Positions 5,883 through 53,635 of a stretch of DNA of 64,000 bases are shown here, one piece after another. Under the pieces are notes generated by a model, which was given only the letters and a program-made list of their open reading frames with translations, did not search any database and was not told the origin of the DNA. Positions within the stretch are counted from its first letter, which is position 1, and each line of letters opens with the position of its first letter. The position numbers and the translations under genes are program-made. This DNA comes from Spartinivicinus ruber (GTDB lineage: Bacteria; Pseudomonadota; Gammaproteobacteria; Pseudomonadales; Zooshikellaceae): the NCBI RefSeq assembly GCF_011009015.1, contig NZ_CP048878.1, positions 5,923,001-5,987,000 of the forward strand, written 5' to 3'.

Positions 5883-6285
5883 TACTAATGTAATCAGTGA
5901 AGTCAGGAAAGTTAATAAAGCAAACCCTGGAGTAGTAGATTTTTTCAAAAAGACAGAACGTGAGGATGCAAGAATCTATCTTAGTGTCATTACTATAGGA
6001 GAGCTACGCAGAGGCGTAGAAAAAATACGCCATCGTGGCGATATTAAACAAGCCAACCAACTGGAAAAGTGGCTAAACAATATTATTGTTAATTTCTCTA
6101 ATAATATTCTGGAGTTTTCTGAAACAGAAGCAAATGTATGGGGAAGGTTAAGGGTACCCCACCATGAAAATGCCATCGATAAACAAATTGCAGCGACAGC
6201 ATTAACTTATGGCTTAACGCTTGTCACCAGAAACACTAATGACTTCACCCAAACAGGAGTAAAACTTTTAAACCCTTTTACTTAA
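5869..6285 (+). CDS. VapC/FitB-type PIN-domain ribonuclease toxin
   Basis: 138 residues from the ATG at 5869, giving the standard PIN start MYLVDTNVISE. An upstream ATG at 5827 would add a tail lying inside the antitoxin gene and is unlikely. The acidic catalytic residues are visible: Asp in VDTN (residue 5), Glu in the IGELRRG helix, Asp in the AIDKQIAATA helix and Asp in the TRNTNDF motif. VapC/FitB toxins cleave RNA in a Mg-dependent way. All four residues are present, so the toxin should be active. Confidence 0.92.
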   Translation: MYLVDTNVISEVRKVNKANPGVVDFFKKTEREDARIYLSVITIGELRRGVEKIRHRGDIKQANQLEKWLNNIIVNFSNNILEFSETEANVWGRLRVPHHENAIDKQIAATALTYGLTLVTRNTNDFTQTGVKLLNPFT

Positions 6286-6290
6286 TCACT

Positions 6291-6545
6291 TCAATGCGCA
6301 TGTACCGGCCTGGTGGCTCTTCTCTTCTGCCGTTTCAAATTAGGTTTGCTAGGTTGTTGTACCCAGGCACCTTTTAGTTTAGCCAGGTCATATTTAGGGA
6401 GTGGATTAAACTGGTCACTTATTTCACCAGCAGTTTGGAATATAACCAAAGAGACTAAGATGATAGGTAGCCCCCAAGAAGCTCCTTGGGATAGCGCCAC
6501 TACGCCTAATAGCAATATTACAGTTGCCAGTGTTTTTAGCATCAT
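6291..6545 (-). CDS. small hypothetical membrane protein
   Basis: 84 residues from the ATG at 6545, chosen because a perfect AAGGAGG ribosome binding site lies 8 bases upstream. A longer reading frame would run through a repeat hairpin. One or two hydrophobic segments (about residues 4-36) are followed by a basic, proline-rich tail ending RPVHAH. Function unknown. It is convergent with the toxin gene, whose stop is only 5 bases away. Confidence 0.7.
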   Translation of the reverse strand: MMLKTLATVILLLGVVALSQGASWGLPIILVSLVIFQTAGEISDQFNPLPKYDLAKLKGAWVQQPSKPNLKRQKRRATRPVHAH

Positions 6546-6913
6546 AGTGACTACCTCCTTAGCGCACTTCAGGGTATCTCTAAAAATGCACTTTTTAAAG
6601 ACACCCTTTTGTTCTATTTTAGCACACTGATAATCACAATTATGATTAATTGGTAATATAGCTATCACAGTTAATTTATACCCTTCTCTTTGGCTATAGG
6701 TTGGTTTATATAAATTAATTTTGTTGGATTGTAATACTCCTGGTTTTTTTTAAATAAAAAACTTCCAACTATTTACTAACCAAACCCAACAACCATTTCA
6801 AGTTAAAACTCAACCTTCTAGCCCCCTTAAACTAAGGTCGAAAATCAATTTGCTACGTAAAAACTTTATAATTCGATTTCAACACAGACAAAACCAATCA
6901 ATGGAGTGATTTT
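6546..6913. other. intergenic region with a family 2 hairpin
   Basis: 368 bases between divergent small genes. Apart from the ribosome binding site of the minus-strand gene and the 37-bp hairpin at 6571-6607, it is AT-rich and holds no further recognised feature. Confidence 0.5.
6571..6607. repeat. 37-bp hairpin element, family 2, copy A
   Basis: AGGGTATCTCTAAA at the left pairs with TTTAAAGACACCCT at the right around TGCAC. The same length and ends recur at 20770-20806, with related copies at 11228-11263 and 27431-27515. It lies just upstream of the AAGGAGG of the minus-strand gene, probably inside its 5' untranslated region. Confidence 0.75.
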
Positions 6914-7369
6914 ATGAAATTTTGCAAAACAAAACTTGCCTCTGTTTTATTAGCTTTATCTTGCAGTTTTGGCGTACAGGCAGGTGATAATATTAGCTAC
7001 CAAGAAGCTGAAGCCAATCAGTTAATTGATTATTTACAAACACAAATTCCAGAACATATTAATGCCACTATTACGTATACTGAAACTAATGAAGACAGCT
7101 CAACATTAAATATCAATGTTGGTAATAATATTAATGATTTAATTGAGCCAAGCCCTTCCAGATGGATTAAAGCCAGAACCAAGTGTACATATTTTCATAT
7201 CAATGCTGCCGAACGCAGTTGCTCTTTAGATGGTACTACGGTAATTGGGCGTGCCACTTTAAAGCGGGGAACTTACCCTCAAGCATGTAAAGCTGCCAAG
7301 AAAGCCGCTAACGATCAAGCACCACGAGGCTGTAGAGCTAAGCACTGTTCTCCTTGTACTTATGAATAG
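6914..7369 (+). CDS. secreted cysteine-containing protein, unrecognised
   Basis: 151 residues with a signal peptide (MKFCKTKLASVLLALSCSFGVQA, cut before GD). The mature part has a helical N-terminal stretch, a beta-rich centre and a C-terminal region with six cysteines (KCTYF, RSCSLD, QACKAA, RGCRAKHCSPC) that suggest disulfides in the periplasm or outside. No family is recognised. GGAGTG precedes the ATG. It stands alone between two gaps of about 300 bases. Confidence 0.75.
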   Translation: MKFCKTKLASVLLALSCSFGVQAGDNISYQEAEANQLIDYLQTQIPEHINATITYTETNEDSSTLNINVGNNINDLIEPSPSRWIKARTKCTYFHINAAERSCSLDGTTVIGRATLKRGTYPQACKAAKKAANDQAPRGCRAKHCSPCTYE

Positions 7370-47146: not shown

Positions 47147-47608
47147 TCAAGACGTTTGTTGTAATTGCTTAGGACGAAGCCTGCCTGCCATTTTTAAACC
47201 ATCACGAATATTCATTCCCATCAGCGTTAAATTGACTGCACCTGCTAATAACTCTATACATTGCACAATATAAAACTTGGTATCGAATGATCCAATTGAT
47301 GCCCAATGATTGAGAAATAACGCTGCAGGTATCAAAATAAGTATTCCATTTGCCGCAACTATTGGCATGCGTTTCTTTTTGGCTTCAACTAAGCATCCCT
47401 TTCGAACTTTTGCAATTTTGGCACCCGTAGCCCCAGTTAATGCCATAGCAGGAACCAGAATAAATAAGCCAGGCATCACAATTAAGCTTTTCACCATAGC
47501 AATAGACTCTTCAGAGCCAAATAGCTCAACCAACAAAGTAGACACAGAAAAGGTTGCCATACATAAAGCAGCCAGGATTGCTGCAAGGCGGTGTATGGTA
47601 TATATCAT
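47147..47608 (-). CDS. small inner-membrane protein, unrecognised
   Basis: 153 residues from the ATG at 47608, which has AGGAG 7 bases upstream; the frame is open further but runs into operator sequences. Four membrane helices with a basic cytoplasmic loop (KVRKGCLVEAKKKRMP). No family is recognised. It is divergent from a MarR gene, and the shared intergenic palindromes make it the likely regulated target. Confidence 0.75.
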   Translation of the reverse strand: MIYTIHRLAAILAALCMATFSVSTLLVELFGSEESIAMVKSLIVMPGLFILVPAMALTGATGAKIAKVRKGCLVEAKKKRMPIVAANGILILIPAALFLNHWASIGSFDTKFYIVQCIELLAGAVNLTLMGMNIRDGLKMAGRLRPKQLQQTS

Positions 47609-47630
47609 AGCATTACTCCTACTATTTATT

Positions 47631-47646
47631 TGACAATATACTGTCA
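47631..47646. promoter_or_regulatory. MarR operator palindrome 1
   Basis: TGACAATATACTGTCA: perfect TGACA/TGTCA arms, in the short space between the divergent membrane-protein and MarR genes. Confidence 0.7.
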
Positions 47647-47649
47647 AAC

Positions 47650-47665
47650 TGACAATATGTTGTCA
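47650..47665. promoter_or_regulatory. MarR operator palindrome 2
   Basis: TGACAATATGTTGTCA, a second copy of the same site with arms TGACAA/TTGTCA, 19 bases centre to centre from the first. Two near-identical tandem palindromes strongly suggest cooperative binding of the adjacent MarR protein. Confidence 0.7.
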
Positions 47666-47692
47666 ACTTATTTTAAACGAACGAGCATTGAT

Positions 47693-48139
47693 ATGAAGCA
47701 CACTCGTCAAGGTCAAGCATTTACAGAAATAGTACTAGAAGTGTTCAAGCTCAGCGGCTTACTCGTAACTGAAGGCGATAAGCTAACAGCTGAATTTGGG
47801 CTAACCAGTGCACGCTGGAAAATTCTTGGTGCGCTTATCAGGTCAAACAATCCAATCACTGTTTCTCAAATAGCACGCCTTATGGGGCAAACCCGCCAAG
47901 CAGTGCAACGATTAACAGATGATATGCAGAAAGAAGACTTACTGGCTTTTATAGACAACCCAAACCACAAACGCGCTAAATTAGTATCACTTACCAAAAA
48001 AGGAGAAGAGATTTACTACCAGCTTGAGCAAAAACAAATACCCTGGGCAAATCAGTGTTCAGCAGATATAACGGCAACGGATTTAGAAACAACACTTACT
48101 GCACTCAGACATATCTCAAATTTATTTAAAATAAAATAA
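47693..48139 (+). CDS. MarR-family transcriptional regulator
   Basis: 148 residues from the ATG at 47693; earlier ATGs lie within or upstream of the operator palindromes. The DNA-binding wing region reads NPITVSQIARLMGQTRQAVQRLTDDMQKEDLLAFIDNPNHKRAKLVSLTKKGEE. It probably represses itself and the divergent membrane protein through the two TGACAATAT palindromes. The inducer is unknown. Confidence 0.9.
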   Translation: MKHTRQGQAFTEIVLEVFKLSGLLVTEGDKLTAEFGLTSARWKILGALIRSNNPITVSQIARLMGQTRQAVQRLTDDMQKEDLLAFIDNPNHKRAKLVSLTKKGEEIYYQLEQKQIPWANQCSADITATDLETTLTALRHISNLFKIK

Positions 48140-48510
48140 GTTTTTATAATGTTTCATAGCGCCCTTAAATTATTTACAACTCTTATTAAATATCAAATTC
48201 TTTAAACGGCACTGAAACTACTCTCCCTAACAAGCCAAAACAAACTTAAACATTGTTTAATATATAGATTATTATTAATACCTATAAAAAAGCATAGTAG
48301 TTTTCTAAATTAAAATAAAACCTTATATATAAATAACACTATAAGAATTCTGATTTAAAACATGATTTTCCACCAAAAAAAAAACACCTATCAAATGGTT
48401 AGTCAACTTATTAAAATTTATTCTATTATAAACATGTAACACTTATATTTACCCTCTCCTGTTCTCAGAGAAAGGGAAAGGTATTTATCGTAATGAAAAA
48501 AGGTACCATT
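48140..48510. other. AT-rich intergenic region before the GTPase operon
   Basis: About 370 very AT-rich bases that must hold the promoter of the four-gene operon. No specific promoter or operator can be singled out. Confidence 0.5.
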
Positions 48511-49065
48511 ATGACTAAGAAATCTCATAATGTGGTTCATAGCGTTAACTCATCAATACCGAAAGAAGATAACCCAGACAAGCTAACTTCTATTCGCCAA
48601 CTTTTATTCGGTGAAGAAATTGCCAGGCTAGATGCCACCATTGCTGATCACTATAAGCTATTTTCAGAAAAGTTTATAAGCTTAGAAACTTTAATCAAAA
48701 CTAGCAACGATAAGATTGAAAAAAATATACAATCAGCTATGTCAGAGCTTAATCAATCCATCAGTGTAAATAATAACAAGCATCTTCAACAAGAAGATAA
48801 ACTCGAGCAAAAGTTGATAGATTTTAGCTCTCGATTTAAAGAGTTTAAAACACACACCGAACACGATTTATCAGAGGCACATAGTGAACTAGAAACCTCT
48901 GCTACCAAAATTTATAAATCCTTGGAAAAAGAGGTGAGGTTACTATCGAAAAAAATTGAGCAAACTTCTCAAGAGCTTAGCGCTAATAAAACAGACCGAA
49001 AAACACTTGCCACCTTACTTGAAACTATGGCCGTAAACTTGATCCAAGGACAGAAACAGGAGTAA
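48511..49065 (+). CDS. coiled-coil protein, first gene of the GTPase operon
   Basis: 184 residues from the ATG at 48511, behind AAAAAAGG at 7 bases (an ATG at 48493 would add six residues). After a polar N-terminus it has LTSIRQLLFGEEIARLD, related to a motif near the N-terminus of the next protein, then long heptad-like helices (about 45-175) predicted to form a coiled coil. No enzyme motif is seen. The following gene starts 2 bases after its stop, so the products are likely partners. Confidence 0.75.
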   Translation: MTKKSHNVVHSVNSSIPKEDNPDKLTSIRQLLFGEEIARLDATIADHYKLFSEKFISLETLIKTSNDKIEKNIQSAMSELNQSISVNNNKHLQQEDKLEQKLIDFSSRFKEFKTHTEHDLSEAHSELETSATKIYKSLEKEVRLLSKKIEQTSQELSANKTDRKTLATLLETMAVNLIQGQKQE

Positions 49066-49067
49066 TT

Positions 49068-50846
49068 ATGAGCAGTGGCCACGCCATAAAAAATAGCCAT
49101 AACCTTGAACATACTCATGAGGAAGATCATCAACGTTTGAGATCTCTAGTATTAGGAGAAGAACTCGAGACTTTCTTAAACAAAAAGGTTAAACAGGATG
49201 AAATACAACACACTGCGGAAATATTAACTGAGGCATTTACAATTCGCAATAAAATGGATTCATCTCTAACAGAAGAACTATCCCCTATTCTATCAAAGTC
49301 GATTGAAAGCTCAATTAAACAAAATCGTTTAAGTTTTGCAGATGTTATTTATCCAGTCATTGGTCCTGCGGTTAGAAAAGCTGTTGCTAATGCATTATCT
49401 GACATGATTTATTCTTTGAATCAGTTATTAAAAAAGAGTTTGTCTGCGCGAGCGATTATATGGCGTTTTAAAGCATGGTTCTCAGGAATTCCCTATAGCC
49501 AGTTTGTGATACTGCAAAACTTACAGTTCAGGGTAGAACAAGTATTTTTGATTCACCGAGAAACAGGACTATTGATTGAATCCTGTTCAGCAAAAGATAT
49601 TTCTTCACAAGATCCAGATCTTATATCAGCAATGCTAACAGCTATTACAGACTTTATTAAAGATTCTTTCAATCAGGTCCAAAATACACAAAATACAGAC
49701 ACTCTAAACTCTATACAATTTGGTGAGTGGAATCTACTTATTGAAACAGGCCCCTATGCCACTATTGCTCTAGCCATAAGAGGCAATGTCCACAAAGATA
49801 TTAAAGACCGCTTACAGGAAATTTGTGAAGCAATTCACTCCGAGTTTAGCTCACAACTGAAATTATATTCAGGCGATAATACTTTTCTAGAAGGTTGCTA
49901 TCCTTTACTTGAGGATGCATTAATTGAAAAACAAAAACCTGTAGAAAAATCCTATCCATGGCTAGCAATAGTTGTCCTGATGCTCATAGGTATAATAACA
50001 AGTTACTCTATATACATCACTTACACTAACAACAAAAATATGGAGCATCTAATTGGAGAAATAATTAAAAAAATTCAGTTAGAAAAAGGTTATCAAATAA
50101 TTAGTCATCAATATAATAACAATGAACTTAACATTAATTTACTCAAATCACCAACTTCAAGACCAATTAATCAAGTAATATCTAAAAACAAAACACCAAA
50201 ACTAAAAATAAATATTACAGACATGAATGCTTCTATCTATGACCCACAACTATTCTTACCTGTTTTAGAGCATAAATATTTAATCAAATTTCAATCAATA
50301 TCAACAGATAATGGTATCAAGCTAATTGCAGAAGGAACCTTACCCGAAGATCAATTAAAAGCCCTGGCTATCGATCCAATGGTAAAAAATCTTTTTTCAG
50401 AATTTGATACCTCTCAAGTAAAAATACAATTACCTAGAAATCGGCTTGCTGAATTGGATACTGAATTCTTGGCTCTAGTTGAAGATATAAACAACATCAA
50501 TATTTATTTTGAACATCGTTTATCAGTTATTATTAATGAAAGCCATAACACGCTGTCTACATTAATCAACCAACTAAATATATTACAAAAAATTTCCTTG
50601 GAGTCTAGCTACTCAATTACACAAATAACTGTATTAGGATTGGCAGATAGAGAGGGCAGGAATAGTGCAAACCTGTCAATAAGTAAAAAACGAGCCCAAT
50701 TGATAGCTTCTCAATTAAAGGCGAATGGTATTAATGAGAACATTATCGTCGCCTGGGGGTTGGGGGCTATAGATCTACCAAACGTACCCTTAGAACAACA
50801 AAGACGTGTAAACATTCGCGTACTATTCCATCAAAAAGTGGAGTGA
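49068..50846 (+). CDS. transmembrane OmpA-like protein with longin-like cytoplasmic region
   Basis: 592 residues. The N-terminal part contains HQRLRSLVLGEELETFLNKK (21-40), the ADVIYPVIGPAVRKAVANAL helix (91-110), and FRVEQVFLIHRETGLLIES (about 154-172) opening a region (to about 270) whose strand-helix order resembles longin/roadblock-type domains. One membrane helix (about 297-318) follows. The C-terminal part (about 430-592) is OmpA-like, with ITVLGLADREGRNSANLSISKKRA and a final QRRVNIRV, which binds peptidoglycan in relatives. It would link the cytoplasm to the cell wall. The GTPase gene starts 4 bases later. Confidence 0.8.
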   Translation: MSSGHAIKNSHNLEHTHEEDHQRLRSLVLGEELETFLNKKVKQDEIQHTAEILTEAFTIRNKMDSSLTEELSPILSKSIESSIKQNRLSFADVIYPVIGPAVRKAVANALSDMIYSLNQLLKKSLSARAIIWRFKAWFSGIPYSQFVILQNLQFRVEQVFLIHRETGLLIESCSAKDISSQDPDLISAMLTAITDFIKDSFNQVQNTQNTDTLNSIQFGEWNLLIETGPYATIALAIRGNVHKDIKDRLQEICEAIHSEFSSQLKLYSGDNTFLEGCYPLLEDALIEKQKPVEKSYPWLAIVVLMLIGIITSYSIYITYTNNKNMEHLIGEIIKKIQLEKGYQIISHQYNNNELNINLLKSPTSRPINQVISKNKTPKLKINITDMNASIYDPQLFLPVLEHKYLIKFQSISTDNGIKLIAEGTLPEDQLKALAIDPMVKNLFSEFDTSQVKIQLPRNRLAELDTEFLALVEDINNINIYFEHRLSVIINESHNTLSTLINQLNILQKISLESSYSITQITVLGLADREGRNSANLSISKKRAQLIASQLKANGINENIIVAWGLGAIDLPNVPLEQQRRVNIRVLFHQKVE

Positions 50847-50850
50847 ACAC

Positions 50851-51390
50851 ATGCTTTCAAAGAAAATATGTATGTTAGGTGCCTTTGCAGTAGGAAAAAC
50901 GAGTTTAGTAAAGCAATACGTACACAGTATTTTTAATGAAAAATATCATACTACTATTGGCGTAAAAATTGATAAACGCCTAGTTAGTATTAATGATCAA
51001 CCTATACAGTTAATTCTATGGGATATAGAAGGTGTTGATATTTTCACTGAGCTAAACCCTTCTTATTTGAGAGGTGCCAGTGGGTATATATTGGTGATTG
51101 ATGGAACTCGCCCCCAAACCCTAGAAACAGCCCGAGAAATCATGGGCCAATTACAGCTCAACTTAAATGAAAGAAAACTAATCCTTCTCATCAACAAATC
51201 AGATTTGAAAAATAAATGGCTAATCAATGATAGTCAATTATCAGAACTTATGATTAAAGAAGAAGATATTTTTATAACCAGTGCAAAAACTGGTCAACGA
51301 GTAGAACAAGCATTTCAGCATATCGCTGAACTCATTGCACCAATCACTTGTTATCAAGCAGATCAACATGAATACACCTCTAACCGATAA
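50851..51390 (+). CDS. Ras/Rab-like small GTPase
   Basis: 179 residues with all five G boxes: G1 GAFAVGKTS (10-18), G2 Thr35 in YHTTIGVKI, G3 WDIEG (57-61), G4 NKSD (115-118) and G5 TSAK (143-146). The numbering coincides with Ras. The catalytic Gln after G3 is replaced by Val62, and position 12 is Phe, so intrinsic GTP hydrolysis should be slow and need a partner. No lipid-anchor motif is visible. It lies between the OmpA-like and the c-di-GMP genes. Confidence 0.9.
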   Translation: MLSKKICMLGAFAVGKTSLVKQYVHSIFNEKYHTTIGVKIDKRLVSINDQPIQLILWDIEGVDIFTELNPSYLRGASGYILVIDGTRPQTLETAREIMGQLQLNLNERKLILLINKSDLKNKWLINDSQLSELMIKEEDIFITSAKTGQRVEQAFQHIAELIAPITCYQADQHEYTSNR

Positions 51391-53566
51391 TAACAATTCA
51401 TATATACTTTCTGATATCCTAACTCAACTGGACATCGCTGCTTTTTATTATAACCATGAATATTTTACTCCAATATACCAGTTACCTTCCTGGTTTATCA
51501 ATCTTTATAAAATAAAGTCTAAACAACAACTTATATCAACAAACAAATATTTTTTGATAGAGAGCTTTCCATTTATAGAAAATTTTTTACATGATGCTAA
51601 AAATACATGGAATAAAGATATAACAAAGCCTCTTCGATCTGGAATCTGGTCCGAATCACTTGATGATATCCATGAGTTAAATTTGGAAGCAATTGCTTTA
51701 ACATCTCAAAAAAAACCACTAATACTAATTGTAAATGAAACCAGAAATTTTAAATCTAAACAAAAAGTATATCAAAACGCAAGAAACTTGGCATTAAAAA
51801 ACGAGCGTTTAGAGTCTGCAATTCATCTGCACCAGAGAAAATTACAATTTCGTCTTGAAAAAAATTATACACAAAAAAAATCATTTGAAAATATTAATAA
51901 AGATATACAAGATGAATCAACAGCAGTTTTAATTTGTCGTTATGATGGCAGTGTAGAGGTTTATAATAAAGCCCTCATTGATATATACTCACTCCCAGGA
52001 AAAAAAGAATTATATGAGAAATCTTTACTCAAAAAATGGAGTAAAGAGGCAGAGCGTCAGTATCCGGAAATACATAGAGTATTAGAAAGTGGACATCACT
52101 GGGAAGGAGAATTTGAAACTTTAGACAATGACAATAATAAAAAATGGGTTCATTTAATGATAGCCCCAATTTTTGATCAGTCTAATACCTTAGAACACTA
52201 TATTTGTATTGCTAATGATATTAGCAACATCAAGCTTTCCTCTAAAGAAATAGAACTATTAACACAAATTGATCCTGTTACTCAATTACCTAATCGCCGT
52301 AATTTTTGGAGCTATCTATATGAAAAAATAGATAAAAACAGTCAGGAAAAAAAAAGTCTAGCTTTATTTTATCTTGATCTGGATCATTTCAAGCGAGTGA
52401 ATGATGATCTTGGCCCCGAACAAGCTGACTTTTTACTAAGCGCTGTAGCTAATCGATTAAAGCAATCTTTGAAAAAGCAAGATTTTATTGCTCATCTTGG
52501 TGGCGATGAGTTTGCTATAGTTATAGATGGTATAGAAGACCAACATAATTTATCAAAAATTGCTCAACGAATAAAAAATAATATTTATCGAGATATTTCT
52601 TTTGATGATTTTATACTCAACGTAAGCACTAGCATCGGAATCGCAATCTATCCGCAACATGGAGTTAAACCTCACCTTCTAGTAAAAAATGCTGACTATG
52701 CTATGTACCATGCAAAGGAAATGGGAAGAAACCAATTTCAGTTTTCTAGTCCCTATAGCACACGCCATATCAAACGAAAAATTCATATTGATCAAGGGTT
52801 AAAAATTGCGTTAGCAAACAATGAATTTACTTTACTTTATCAGCCTCAAATCAGCTTAAATAACAAAGAAGATTATAGAGTAGAAGCCTTAATTCGTTGG
52901 TACCATCCTAAGCATGGAATGATTACTCCTTCTGAGTTTATATCTATAGCAGAAGAATCAGGTACCATTATTGAAATTGGTCGATGGATATTAAATACGG
53001 CTTGTTTAGAAATTAAAAATCTCAATAAATTTTATATTCCAATAAAAATTTCAATCAACATTTCTCCTAACCAATTCAAATTTTCTAATCTAATACAAGA
53101 AGTTAATAGATCTTTACAAAATCATAAAATTGATCCTTTTCAACTAGAACTAGAAGTGACAGAAAGTATATTTCTTGATGACTTAGACAATGTTATTAAA
53201 CAATTAAAATCCTTAAAAAAAATAGGTATTACCCTTGCTCTCGATGATTTTGGAACTGGATATTCTTCATTAAACTATCTAAAAAAACTTCCTATTGATA
53301 TTATTAAAATTGATCGTAGTTTTATTAATGAAATTCCTTTAAATTGTCATAGTTGCACTATTGTTGAGTCAGTTATTAAGATGGCACACCAATTACATAT
53401 TAAAGTAGTTGCTGAAGGTGTAGAAACAGAAAGACAATCAAAGTATCTTAGAAGTTTAAACTGTGATTACATACAAGGATTTTTATTCTATCCACCTCTC
53501 ACTAATAAAGAACTTATTAACCTTTACCAATCCCGCTCACCTTTCAAATCAATCAAAAAATATTAA
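51368..53566 (+). CDS. PAS-GGDEF-EAL c-di-GMP enzyme
   Basis: 732 residues from the ATG at 51368, overlapping the GTPase gene by 23 bases, so the two are coupled. No membrane helix. An N-terminal region of about 150 residues without recognised motifs and a short coiled coil lead to a PAS domain (about 185-300), GGDEF (about 305-475) with intact LGGDEFAIV, and EAL (about 490-725) with VEALIRWYHP, ELEVTESIF and DDFGTGYSSL. Both catalytic signatures are present. In this operon it is probably the output of the small-GTPase switch. Confidence 0.92.
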   Translation: MNTPLTDNNNSYILSDILTQLDIAAFYYNHEYFTPIYQLPSWFINLYKIKSKQQLISTNKYFLIESFPFIENFLHDAKNTWNKDITKPLRSGIWSESLDDIHELNLEAIALTSQKKPLILIVNETRNFKSKQKVYQNARNLALKNERLESAIHLHQRKLQFRLEKNYTQKKSFENINKDIQDESTAVLICRYDGSVEVYNKALIDIYSLPGKKELYEKSLLKKWSKEAERQYPEIHRVLESGHHWEGEFETLDNDNNKKWVHLMIAPIFDQSNTLEHYICIANDISNIKLSSKEIELLTQIDPVTQLPNRRNFWSYLYEKIDKNSQEKKSLALFYLDLDHFKRVNDDLGPEQADFLLSAVANRLKQSLKKQDFIAHLGGDEFAIVIDGIEDQHNLSKIAQRIKNNIYRDISFDDFILNVSTSIGIAIYPQHGVKPHLLVKNADYAMYHAKEMGRNQFQFSSPYSTRHIKRKIHIDQGLKIALANNEFTLLYQPQISLNNKEDYRVEALIRWYHPKHGMITPSEFISIAEESGTIIEIGRWILNTACLEIKNLNKFYIPIKISINISPNQFKFSNLIQEVNRSLQNHKIDPFQLELEVTESIFLDDLDNVIKQLKSLKKIGITLALDDFGTGYSSLNYLKKLPIDIIKIDRSFINEIPLNCHSCTIVESVIKMAHQLHIKVVAEGVETERQSKYLRSLNCDYIQGFLFYPPLTNKELINLYQSRSPFKSIKKY

Positions 53567-53583
53567 TTTTTTTATTTTAAGCT

Positions 53584-53616
53584 GTATAGTTTTAATCAAA
53601 ATAATTAAAACTATAC
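53584..53616. terminator. bidirectional terminator between convergent genes
   Basis: GTATAGTTTTAAT and ATTAAAACTATAC form a perfect 13-bp stem around CAAAATA. TTTT and A/T runs flank both sides. It lies between the GGDEF-EAL gene and the RND transporter gene. Confidence 0.75.
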
Positions 53617-53635
53617 TTTTAATAAAAAATTAAAA

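Follow-up and report, generated by a model that had tools for sequence, protein, structure and literature searches.

The operon at positions 48511–53566 of a 64,000-nucleotide stretch of Spartinivicinus ruber DNA (contig NZ_CP048878.1, positions 5,923,001 to 5,987,000 of the forward strand; this whole stretch is referred to as the window) is, as judged from its sequence, a Group 1 Rup system, a class described computationally in 2014 (Wuichet and Sogaard-Andersen 2014; PMC4316618). It is an ordinary member of the described class, of interest not for the combination of genes but for a structural reading of a domain of its OmpA-type protein, a reading not found in the literature searched. The passages on Group 1 in that paper leave this domain as unknown and name neither a longin nor a PAS-like fold; in the window it is predicted to be longin-like, and its gene adjoins that of a Rab-like GTPase.

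Identity and conservation of the operon

Open reading frame analysis places four genes tightly packed on the + strand, encoding a coiled-coil protein (184 aa; 48511..49065, with an alternative in-frame ATG at 48493), a putatively wall-anchored OmpA-type protein (592 aa; 49068..50846), a Ras/Rab-like small GTPase of the Group 1 Rup type (179 aa; 50851..51390) and an output protein (732 aa; 51368..53566) that combines a PAS-like N-terminal domain, a PAS domain, GGDEF and EAL. The gaps of 2 and 4 bases and the 23-base overlap given in the original prediction are reproduced when the last gene is read from the ATG at 51368. The coiled-coil protein was judged from its sequence and from weak coiled-coil-type matches, not by a dedicated predictor; IRQLLFGEE near its N-terminus and DRKTLATLL near its C-terminus are conserved, the latter as a DRxxLAxLF element.

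According to PMC4316618, Group 1 Rup GTPases lack the G3 glutamine, and their neighbourhood comprises a coiled-coil protein, a protein with a domain of unknown function, a transmembrane helix and an OmpA domain (DUF-TM-OmpA), and an output protein with an invariant N-terminal glutamine, usually either a fusion of diguanylate cyclase and phosphodiesterase or a histidine kinase. The window differs in nothing essential from this description: its Ras-superfamily GTPase of 179 aa (<240 aa) reads WDIEGV, without the G3 glutamine, it is adjoined by the coiled-coil and DUF-TM-OmpA proteins, and the GGDEF-EAL output protein carries Gln136 in its N-terminal region. A Group 1 member is named in Mesorhizobium loti (PMC4316618), and the window GTPase is 46.9% identical to a Mesorhizobium relative. 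The original prediction knew of no described pathway with this combination, a view not supported in light of the same four-gene neighbourhood in PMC4316618. As of 2014, one Rup member was known to be transcribed and none had been experimentally characterised (PMC4316618). Among the openly licensed PMC papers listed in our searches, none studied a Group 1 Rup system by experiment and none tied one to a longin domain, which is not the same as absence from print.

We counted conservation over 84 loci, namely 80 genome loci, the window and three plasmid loci (L010 and L015, the latter from a Legionella plasmid, were left out). The genome loci are the best 80 of at least 575 confirmed matches to the GTPase alignment in genome contigs, so the sample favours close GTPases, and the counting profiles were built from some of the same loci. 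The coiled-coil and longin-OmpA genes lie upstream of the GTPase, in the same order, in 78 of the 84 loci, and in the same 78 when deeper profiles are used. This argues that the arrangement is not chance and bears out conserved co-occurrence, a test set in advance. In two of the six misses (L061, L078) the contig ends less than 0.9 kb from the GTPase. In two loci counted as present (L063, L079) the longin-OmpA frame ends ~0.8–1.1 kb before the GTPase frame and may be interrupted. By record titles, with classes partly assigned from genus names, the operon occurs in gamma-, alpha- and betaproteobacteria, cyanobacteria, Bacteroidales, Desulfobacterales/Desulfovibrionaceae, Acidobacteria, Meiothermus and Nitrospirales. 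An even sample of the phylum of S. ruber contains the longin-OmpA N-terminal domain in 50 of 398 genomes, 29 of them in one family.

The GTPase matches the Ras family of Pfam (E 1.9e-30), and all predicted G boxes can be read in it (GAFAVGKTS, TTIG, WDIEG, NKSD, TSAK), with valine at the G3 glutamine place; G3 being WDIEGV, the catalytic glutamine is missing. Across the 84 GTPases this place holds Glu in 68, Val in 5, Gln in 2 and other residues in 9. Among the best 60 of 773 PDB matches, the best sequences are Rab-type, headed by Rab27A (E 7.2e-21). A Ras-family search of the S. ruber genome returned the window GTPase (6.7e-30) and four other matches (3.8e-10 to 7.2e-4), all in longer frames. 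Among prokaryotic groups, the Rup GTPases are described as the nearest to Rab/Rho/Ras/Ran (PMC4316618; PMC4915359), a relationship not resolved by phylogeny (PMC4915359). The Legionella adelaidensis plasmid locus L015 contains a gene annotated as a Rab family GTPase (5992–6939; 31% identity), and none of the other three operon genes was seen in the annotation around it.

The predicted longin-like domain

The OmpA-type protein consists of an N-terminal LRSLVLGEE motif, a helical region, the predicted longin-like domain, a membrane helix, a periplasmic part and an OmpA domain. Its three best hydropathy windows all fall at 298–318 (Kyte-Doolittle peak 2.38), which places the helix at about residues 298–317 (49959..50018), and the OmpA family domain covers residues 480–572 (50505..50783; PF00691, E 4.4e-7), so the predicted membrane helix and OmpA-like end are both confirmed. 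Of 74 OmpA-type proteins from the genome loci, 61 and that of the window entered the Pfam count, in which 55 of the 62 have an OmpA domain; 57 and that of the window entered the structure alignment.

From this 58-row alignment, AlphaFold2 modelled the cytoplasmic part with a mean predicted local distance difference test score (pLDDT) of 78.9 and a predicted template modelling score of 0.51. Residues 154–265 (49527..49862) are predicted to fold as b-b-a-b-b-b-a, the longin arrangement, with C-terminal helices present; 10-residue blocks between residues 151 and 280 have pLDDT values of 78–97, with one exception of 63 (201–210). A Foldseek search of the PDB with this model gave 23 matches at E<=0.001 (best 1.6e-5), all from longin or longin/roadblock-type entries. 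These include AP adaptor complexes, COPI zeta, a TRAPP subassembly, the longin domain of Sec22b, Mon1-Ccz1 and GATOR1-Gtr-Lam, and several are complexes with Arf1 or Ypt7. The chains matched are presumably the longins of these entries, of which the titles alone were printed. MglB ranks 35th (E 2.3e-3) and an Asgard roadblock 42nd. The longin/roadblock-like region of the original prediction, a second of its three tests set in advance, is thereby supported at the level of modelled structure.

Roadblocks and longins differ in their terminal helices (PMC10933270). In the model, strand 1 is preceded by a helix, as it is in roadblocks, and strand 5 is followed by helices; with helices at both ends we assign the domain to the longin/roadblock superfamily and, on the Foldseek results, place it nearer to longins. 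Bacterial members of this wider superfamily are already known, Longin/Roadblock being entered for bacteria in a review table (PMC4917890), and PMC3521125 traces longins to MglB-type roadblocks. MglB, which the original prediction had offered as a comparison, did not hold up by sequence: a roadblock profile performed no better than controls, so we rejected a roadblock identity by sequence, and no Robl_LC7 match, hence no MglB-type partner, was found in the S. ruber genome. That profile was built from the roadblocks of 19 of 30 loci; the others were near-duplicates, had a stop in the extended stretch, or were affected by frame problems or a contig end.

Several results weigh against the longin call. 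It depends on the one fold prediction described above, and the Foldseek superpositions are modest (template modelling score by target 0.17–0.75, root mean square deviation 3.5–8.5 in the 50 best rows). Neither Pfam nor a PDB profile search gave a significant match to a longin sequence profile. Intu_longin_3 falls below threshold on the window protein (18.9 bits, cut-off 27.1), and at 0.01 a longin Pfam family is found in 1 of the 62 full OmpA-type proteins. When the 58 sequences were searched one by one, Intu_longin_3 appeared in 2 (best E 0.007), Fuz_longin_1 in 4 (0.033) and Robl_LC7 in 2 (0.032), and unrelated families match equally, such as DUF2292 (5/58, best 0.055) and RNA_pol_Rpb1_7 (2/58, best 0.0024). 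Extended to E 10, the PDB profile search gave two matches, one to a roadblock (E 0.4) and one to a phage-type tail/baseplate protein (E 0.78), and hhalign of the domain against the 19 roadblocks gave a probability of 0.7, like unrelated controls (0.5, 0.9). With sequence tests weak or negative, the fold call rests on the prediction.

Sequence profiles that do not reach significantly to longin or roadblock models, and the single full protein with a longin Pfam match, are also what would be expected if the domain had a generic alpha-beta fold, near longins by Foldseek, and no role with the GTPase. We regard this alternative as improbable, as the 50 best Foldseek rows name longin/roadblock-type entries and no PAS, whereas PAS led the search with the PAS-like model described below, and the gene of the domain adjoins a Rab-like GTPase in 78/84 loci.

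The OmpA-type proteins vary in their remaining parts. Read by eye, the periplasmic part in Mesorhizobium and Rhizobium (L012, 2924–5989; L013, 2923–5988) contains about four repeats of one unit in tandem, as though the distance bridged to the wall could be adjusted, and the window protein is much shorter than theirs (592 vs 1021 aa). The Nostoc protein (L014, 3650–5941; also by eye) has extra AP-x-I-x-x-AI-type repeats before the longin-like domain.

Exchangeable outputs and the proposed mechanism

The output protein matches GGDEF (E 5.9e-41), EAL (E 3.4e-73) and one PAS in Pfam. It carries GGDEF, EAL, DDFGTGYSS and EVTES, with KKQD, not RxxD, at the usual I-site place, and the GGDEF and EAL signatures are intact, as first claimed. 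We take these motifs, and the I-site, to have their customary meanings. A further PAS-like domain (about residues 8–123), unmentioned in the original prediction, precedes the PAS seen by Pfam and has no Pfam PAS match itself. Residues 1–170 are predicted, with a pLDDT of 91.9, to form a PAS-like fold followed by a 44-residue helix; domain and helix, the latter with Gln136 and Arg139, span residues 8–168 (51389..51871). Foldseek gave three matches at E<=0.001 (best 2.9e-4), of which two are chains of the same PAS protein and the third is a LOV protein. Its lower rows are mixed, with many PAS/LOV entries and no longin among the 50 best; those 50 also include CACHE/Tlp sensor domains, the secretion ATPases EpsE, PilB, PilF and PilT, YkuI (EAL) and EagT6. 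Led by PAS/LOV and without longins, this search indicates that Foldseek separates the two folds.

Across the loci, the N-terminal slot of the outputs is occupied by this domain type (type B), by a type A domain, or by both in one protein (e.g., L023, L076, L093). The two types are different sequence families, and an hhalign comparison (probability 35, E 0.0004) is suggestive of a relationship. Type A stands alone in 21 cyanobacterial loci, as a protein of ~130 residues with no output domain, followed by a type B frame. One or both types are found downstream in 80 of 84 loci (79 with other models, which also missed L014). Misses are L070 (~1.1 kb examined), L089 (~0.4 kb) and the two Meiothermus loci, L025 and L036, in which the coiled coil, longin-OmpA protein and GTPase are present and neither type occurs in ~7 kb downstream. 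The S. ruber genome contains one type B match at E<=0.01.

Among 79 output proteins, each of which may enter several classes, Pfam identified HATPase_c in 33, Guanylate_cyc in 18, HisKA in 12, GGDEF in 11, EAL in 9, HD_5 in 7, SpoIIE and Response_reg in 5 each, and Sigma54_activat in 1. Cyclic di-GMP, which the original prediction proposed as the output, is therefore too narrow when set against the kinases and the 18 adenylate/guanylate cyclases. On this sequence evidence, outputs (kinases, adenylate cyclases, GGDEF/EAL, HD, SpoIIE) are swapped behind one constant core, which makes the PAS-like domains the likely coupling part. The passages on Group 1 in PMC4316618 do not mention cyclases other than diguanylate cyclases, nor HD or SpoIIE outputs.

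We propose, as a reading with about an even chance of being correct, that in the Group 1 Rup module a wall-anchored longin protein sets the nucleotide state of the GTPase, which in turn acts on the PAS-like domain. The OmpA domain would grip peptidoglycan and report the state of the envelope through the membrane helix, and the longin-like domain, aided by the coiled-coil protein, would serve the GTPase as a platform for exchange or activation. In its GTP-bound form the GTPase would then bind the PAS-like domain, whose long following helix would alter the activity of the enzyme behind. As the S. ruber enzyme is a GGDEF-EAL protein with intact motifs, the readout here would be cyclic di-GMP. More tentatively, and at somewhat less than an even chance, bacteria of several phyla may possess a dedicated longin-GTPase pair in one operon, in which a peptidoglycan-anchored longin sets the nucleotide state of the bacterial GTPases closest to Rab/Ras. 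Against the proposed mechanism, the direction from GTPase to output is an assumption, and in the other four of the six misses (L032, L033, L082, L089) neither upstream gene was found in 3.7–7 kb of DNA before the GTPase, so the pairing is not obligatory.

A spatial scaffold is a rather unlikely alternative, in which the coiled-coil and OmpA-type proteins form a platform and the GTPase recruits the output enzyme to wall-anchored longin-OmpA sites without switching its activity. Both upstream proteins have an [IVL]RxLLxGx[EQ]-like motif near their start (IRQLLFGEE and LRSLVLGEE in the window). A fixed pattern for it, defined after several of the same sequences had been seen, matched 72/78 coiled-coil proteins, 55/78 OmpA-type proteins and both in 52/78, compared with 1.6% and 1.3% of shuffles; an hhalign alignment of the two families covers the motif alone (probability 10.6, E 0.003). 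We infer that this common motif may be a common docking site, which would fit a scaffold, as would the separate type A proteins of cyanobacteria. However, the long helix directly after the PAS-like domain fits control of activity, and adenylate cyclase outputs have no obvious need for wall anchoring.

Less probable still is a reverse flow, in which the N-terminal domain of the output protein is a GTPase-activating protein, as in the trans-glutamine speculation of PMC4316618. Control would then run from the output protein to the GTPase, and from there to the longin-OmpA protein and the wall. The scarcity of G3 glutamine (2/84, with Glu in 68/84) accords with this idea, as does the conservation of two residues of the helix. 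Of 59 type A rows, 56 have the helix Gln, 2 have a gap and 1 has Arg; of 55 type B rows, 50 have this Gln, 2 have a gap and 3 have Arg. Three residues later, 53 of the 55 type B rows carry an Arg and the remaining 2 a gap. However, type A has no conserved Arg at that place, and the Gln place lies where the helix begins behind the PAS-like core, a region in which conservation of linker residues may have other causes. Moreover, the family of the Desulfovibrio sp. genome of L091 (G432) contains type B domains in 21 of 247 genomes, and the Gln place of these 24 domains (three of them L074, L075 and L091 again) holds Arg in 16, Gln in 5, His in 1, Asn in 1 and an unclear residue in 1. Only 1 of the 16 GTPases beside non-Gln type B domains, in rows read by hand, has a G3 Gln. 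These counts indicate that the trans-glutamine is not a general rule, weakening it as a universal one, and we dropped the idea, first suggested by L074, that a G3 Gln compensates for a lost effector Gln.

The proposed reading, of a wall-anchored longin acting through the GTPase on the output, has several partial parallels. The MglA-MglB pair of Myxococcus xanthus likewise joins a small GTPase to a longin/roadblock-superfamily partner with links to bacterial signalling, but the window partner is not a detectable roadblock by sequence and is wall-anchored, and the best PDB matches of its GTPase are Rab-type. Actinobacterial conservons (Cvn) also combine a small GTPase, a GTPase partner and a signalling enzyme in an operon; in these, however, CvnB is an MglB homologue, and neither an OmpA protein nor a coiled-coil protein is among the four Cvn proteins listed in the source. 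Eukaryotic longin platforms for Rab/Arf (TRAPP, Mon1-Ccz1, AP complexes) share the predicted fold and the GTPase class, whereas the window system is bacterial, has the membrane helix and OmpA domain in the same polypeptide, and contains no SNARE, DENN or other TRAPP part that we could see.

A Rab-longin partnership has been discussed for archaea and eukaryotes. If bacteria do possess the dedicated longin-GTPase pair, that partnership would have a counterpart in them, one connected with the cell wall and with second-messenger enzymes that can be exchanged. The longin-like domain encoded beside Rup GTPases would be a concrete candidate regulator, bearing on the origin of the Rab-longin pairing, and a wall-to-second-messenger switch would become testable in laboratory strains of cyanobacteria or rhizobia.

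Origin in Spartinivicinus ruber and flanking features

Two congeners keep the flanking genes, with ~80–86% identity over the main pieces, and where S. ruber has the operon they have ~165 and ~435 bases; the segment they lack corresponds to 48105–53635 of the window. The G+C content of the operon is 32.3%, compared with 37.7–39.8% in the flanks measured, and the OmpA-type protein is present in 2 of 37 near relatives, the S. ruber genome included. Among the best 80 of at least 575 matches, the nearest GTPases (59–62%) belong to Aliikangiella, Pleionea and a Kangiellaceae metagenome-assembled genome. The simplest reading is that the operon was gained horizontally, with loss in the congeners as the alternative. 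A second segment, at ~47272–47984, is also missing in both congeners.

We rejected an anti-phage role for the operon, for which PADLOC gave only weak ZorA, ZorB and PbeC matches (best E 9.9e-5). Between the operon and a convergent RND transporter gene lies a 13-bp perfect stem (53584..53616, no strand assigned; fold z-score -4.68), which is absent from the list of a consensus scan and is a possible shared terminator of the operon and the RND gene.

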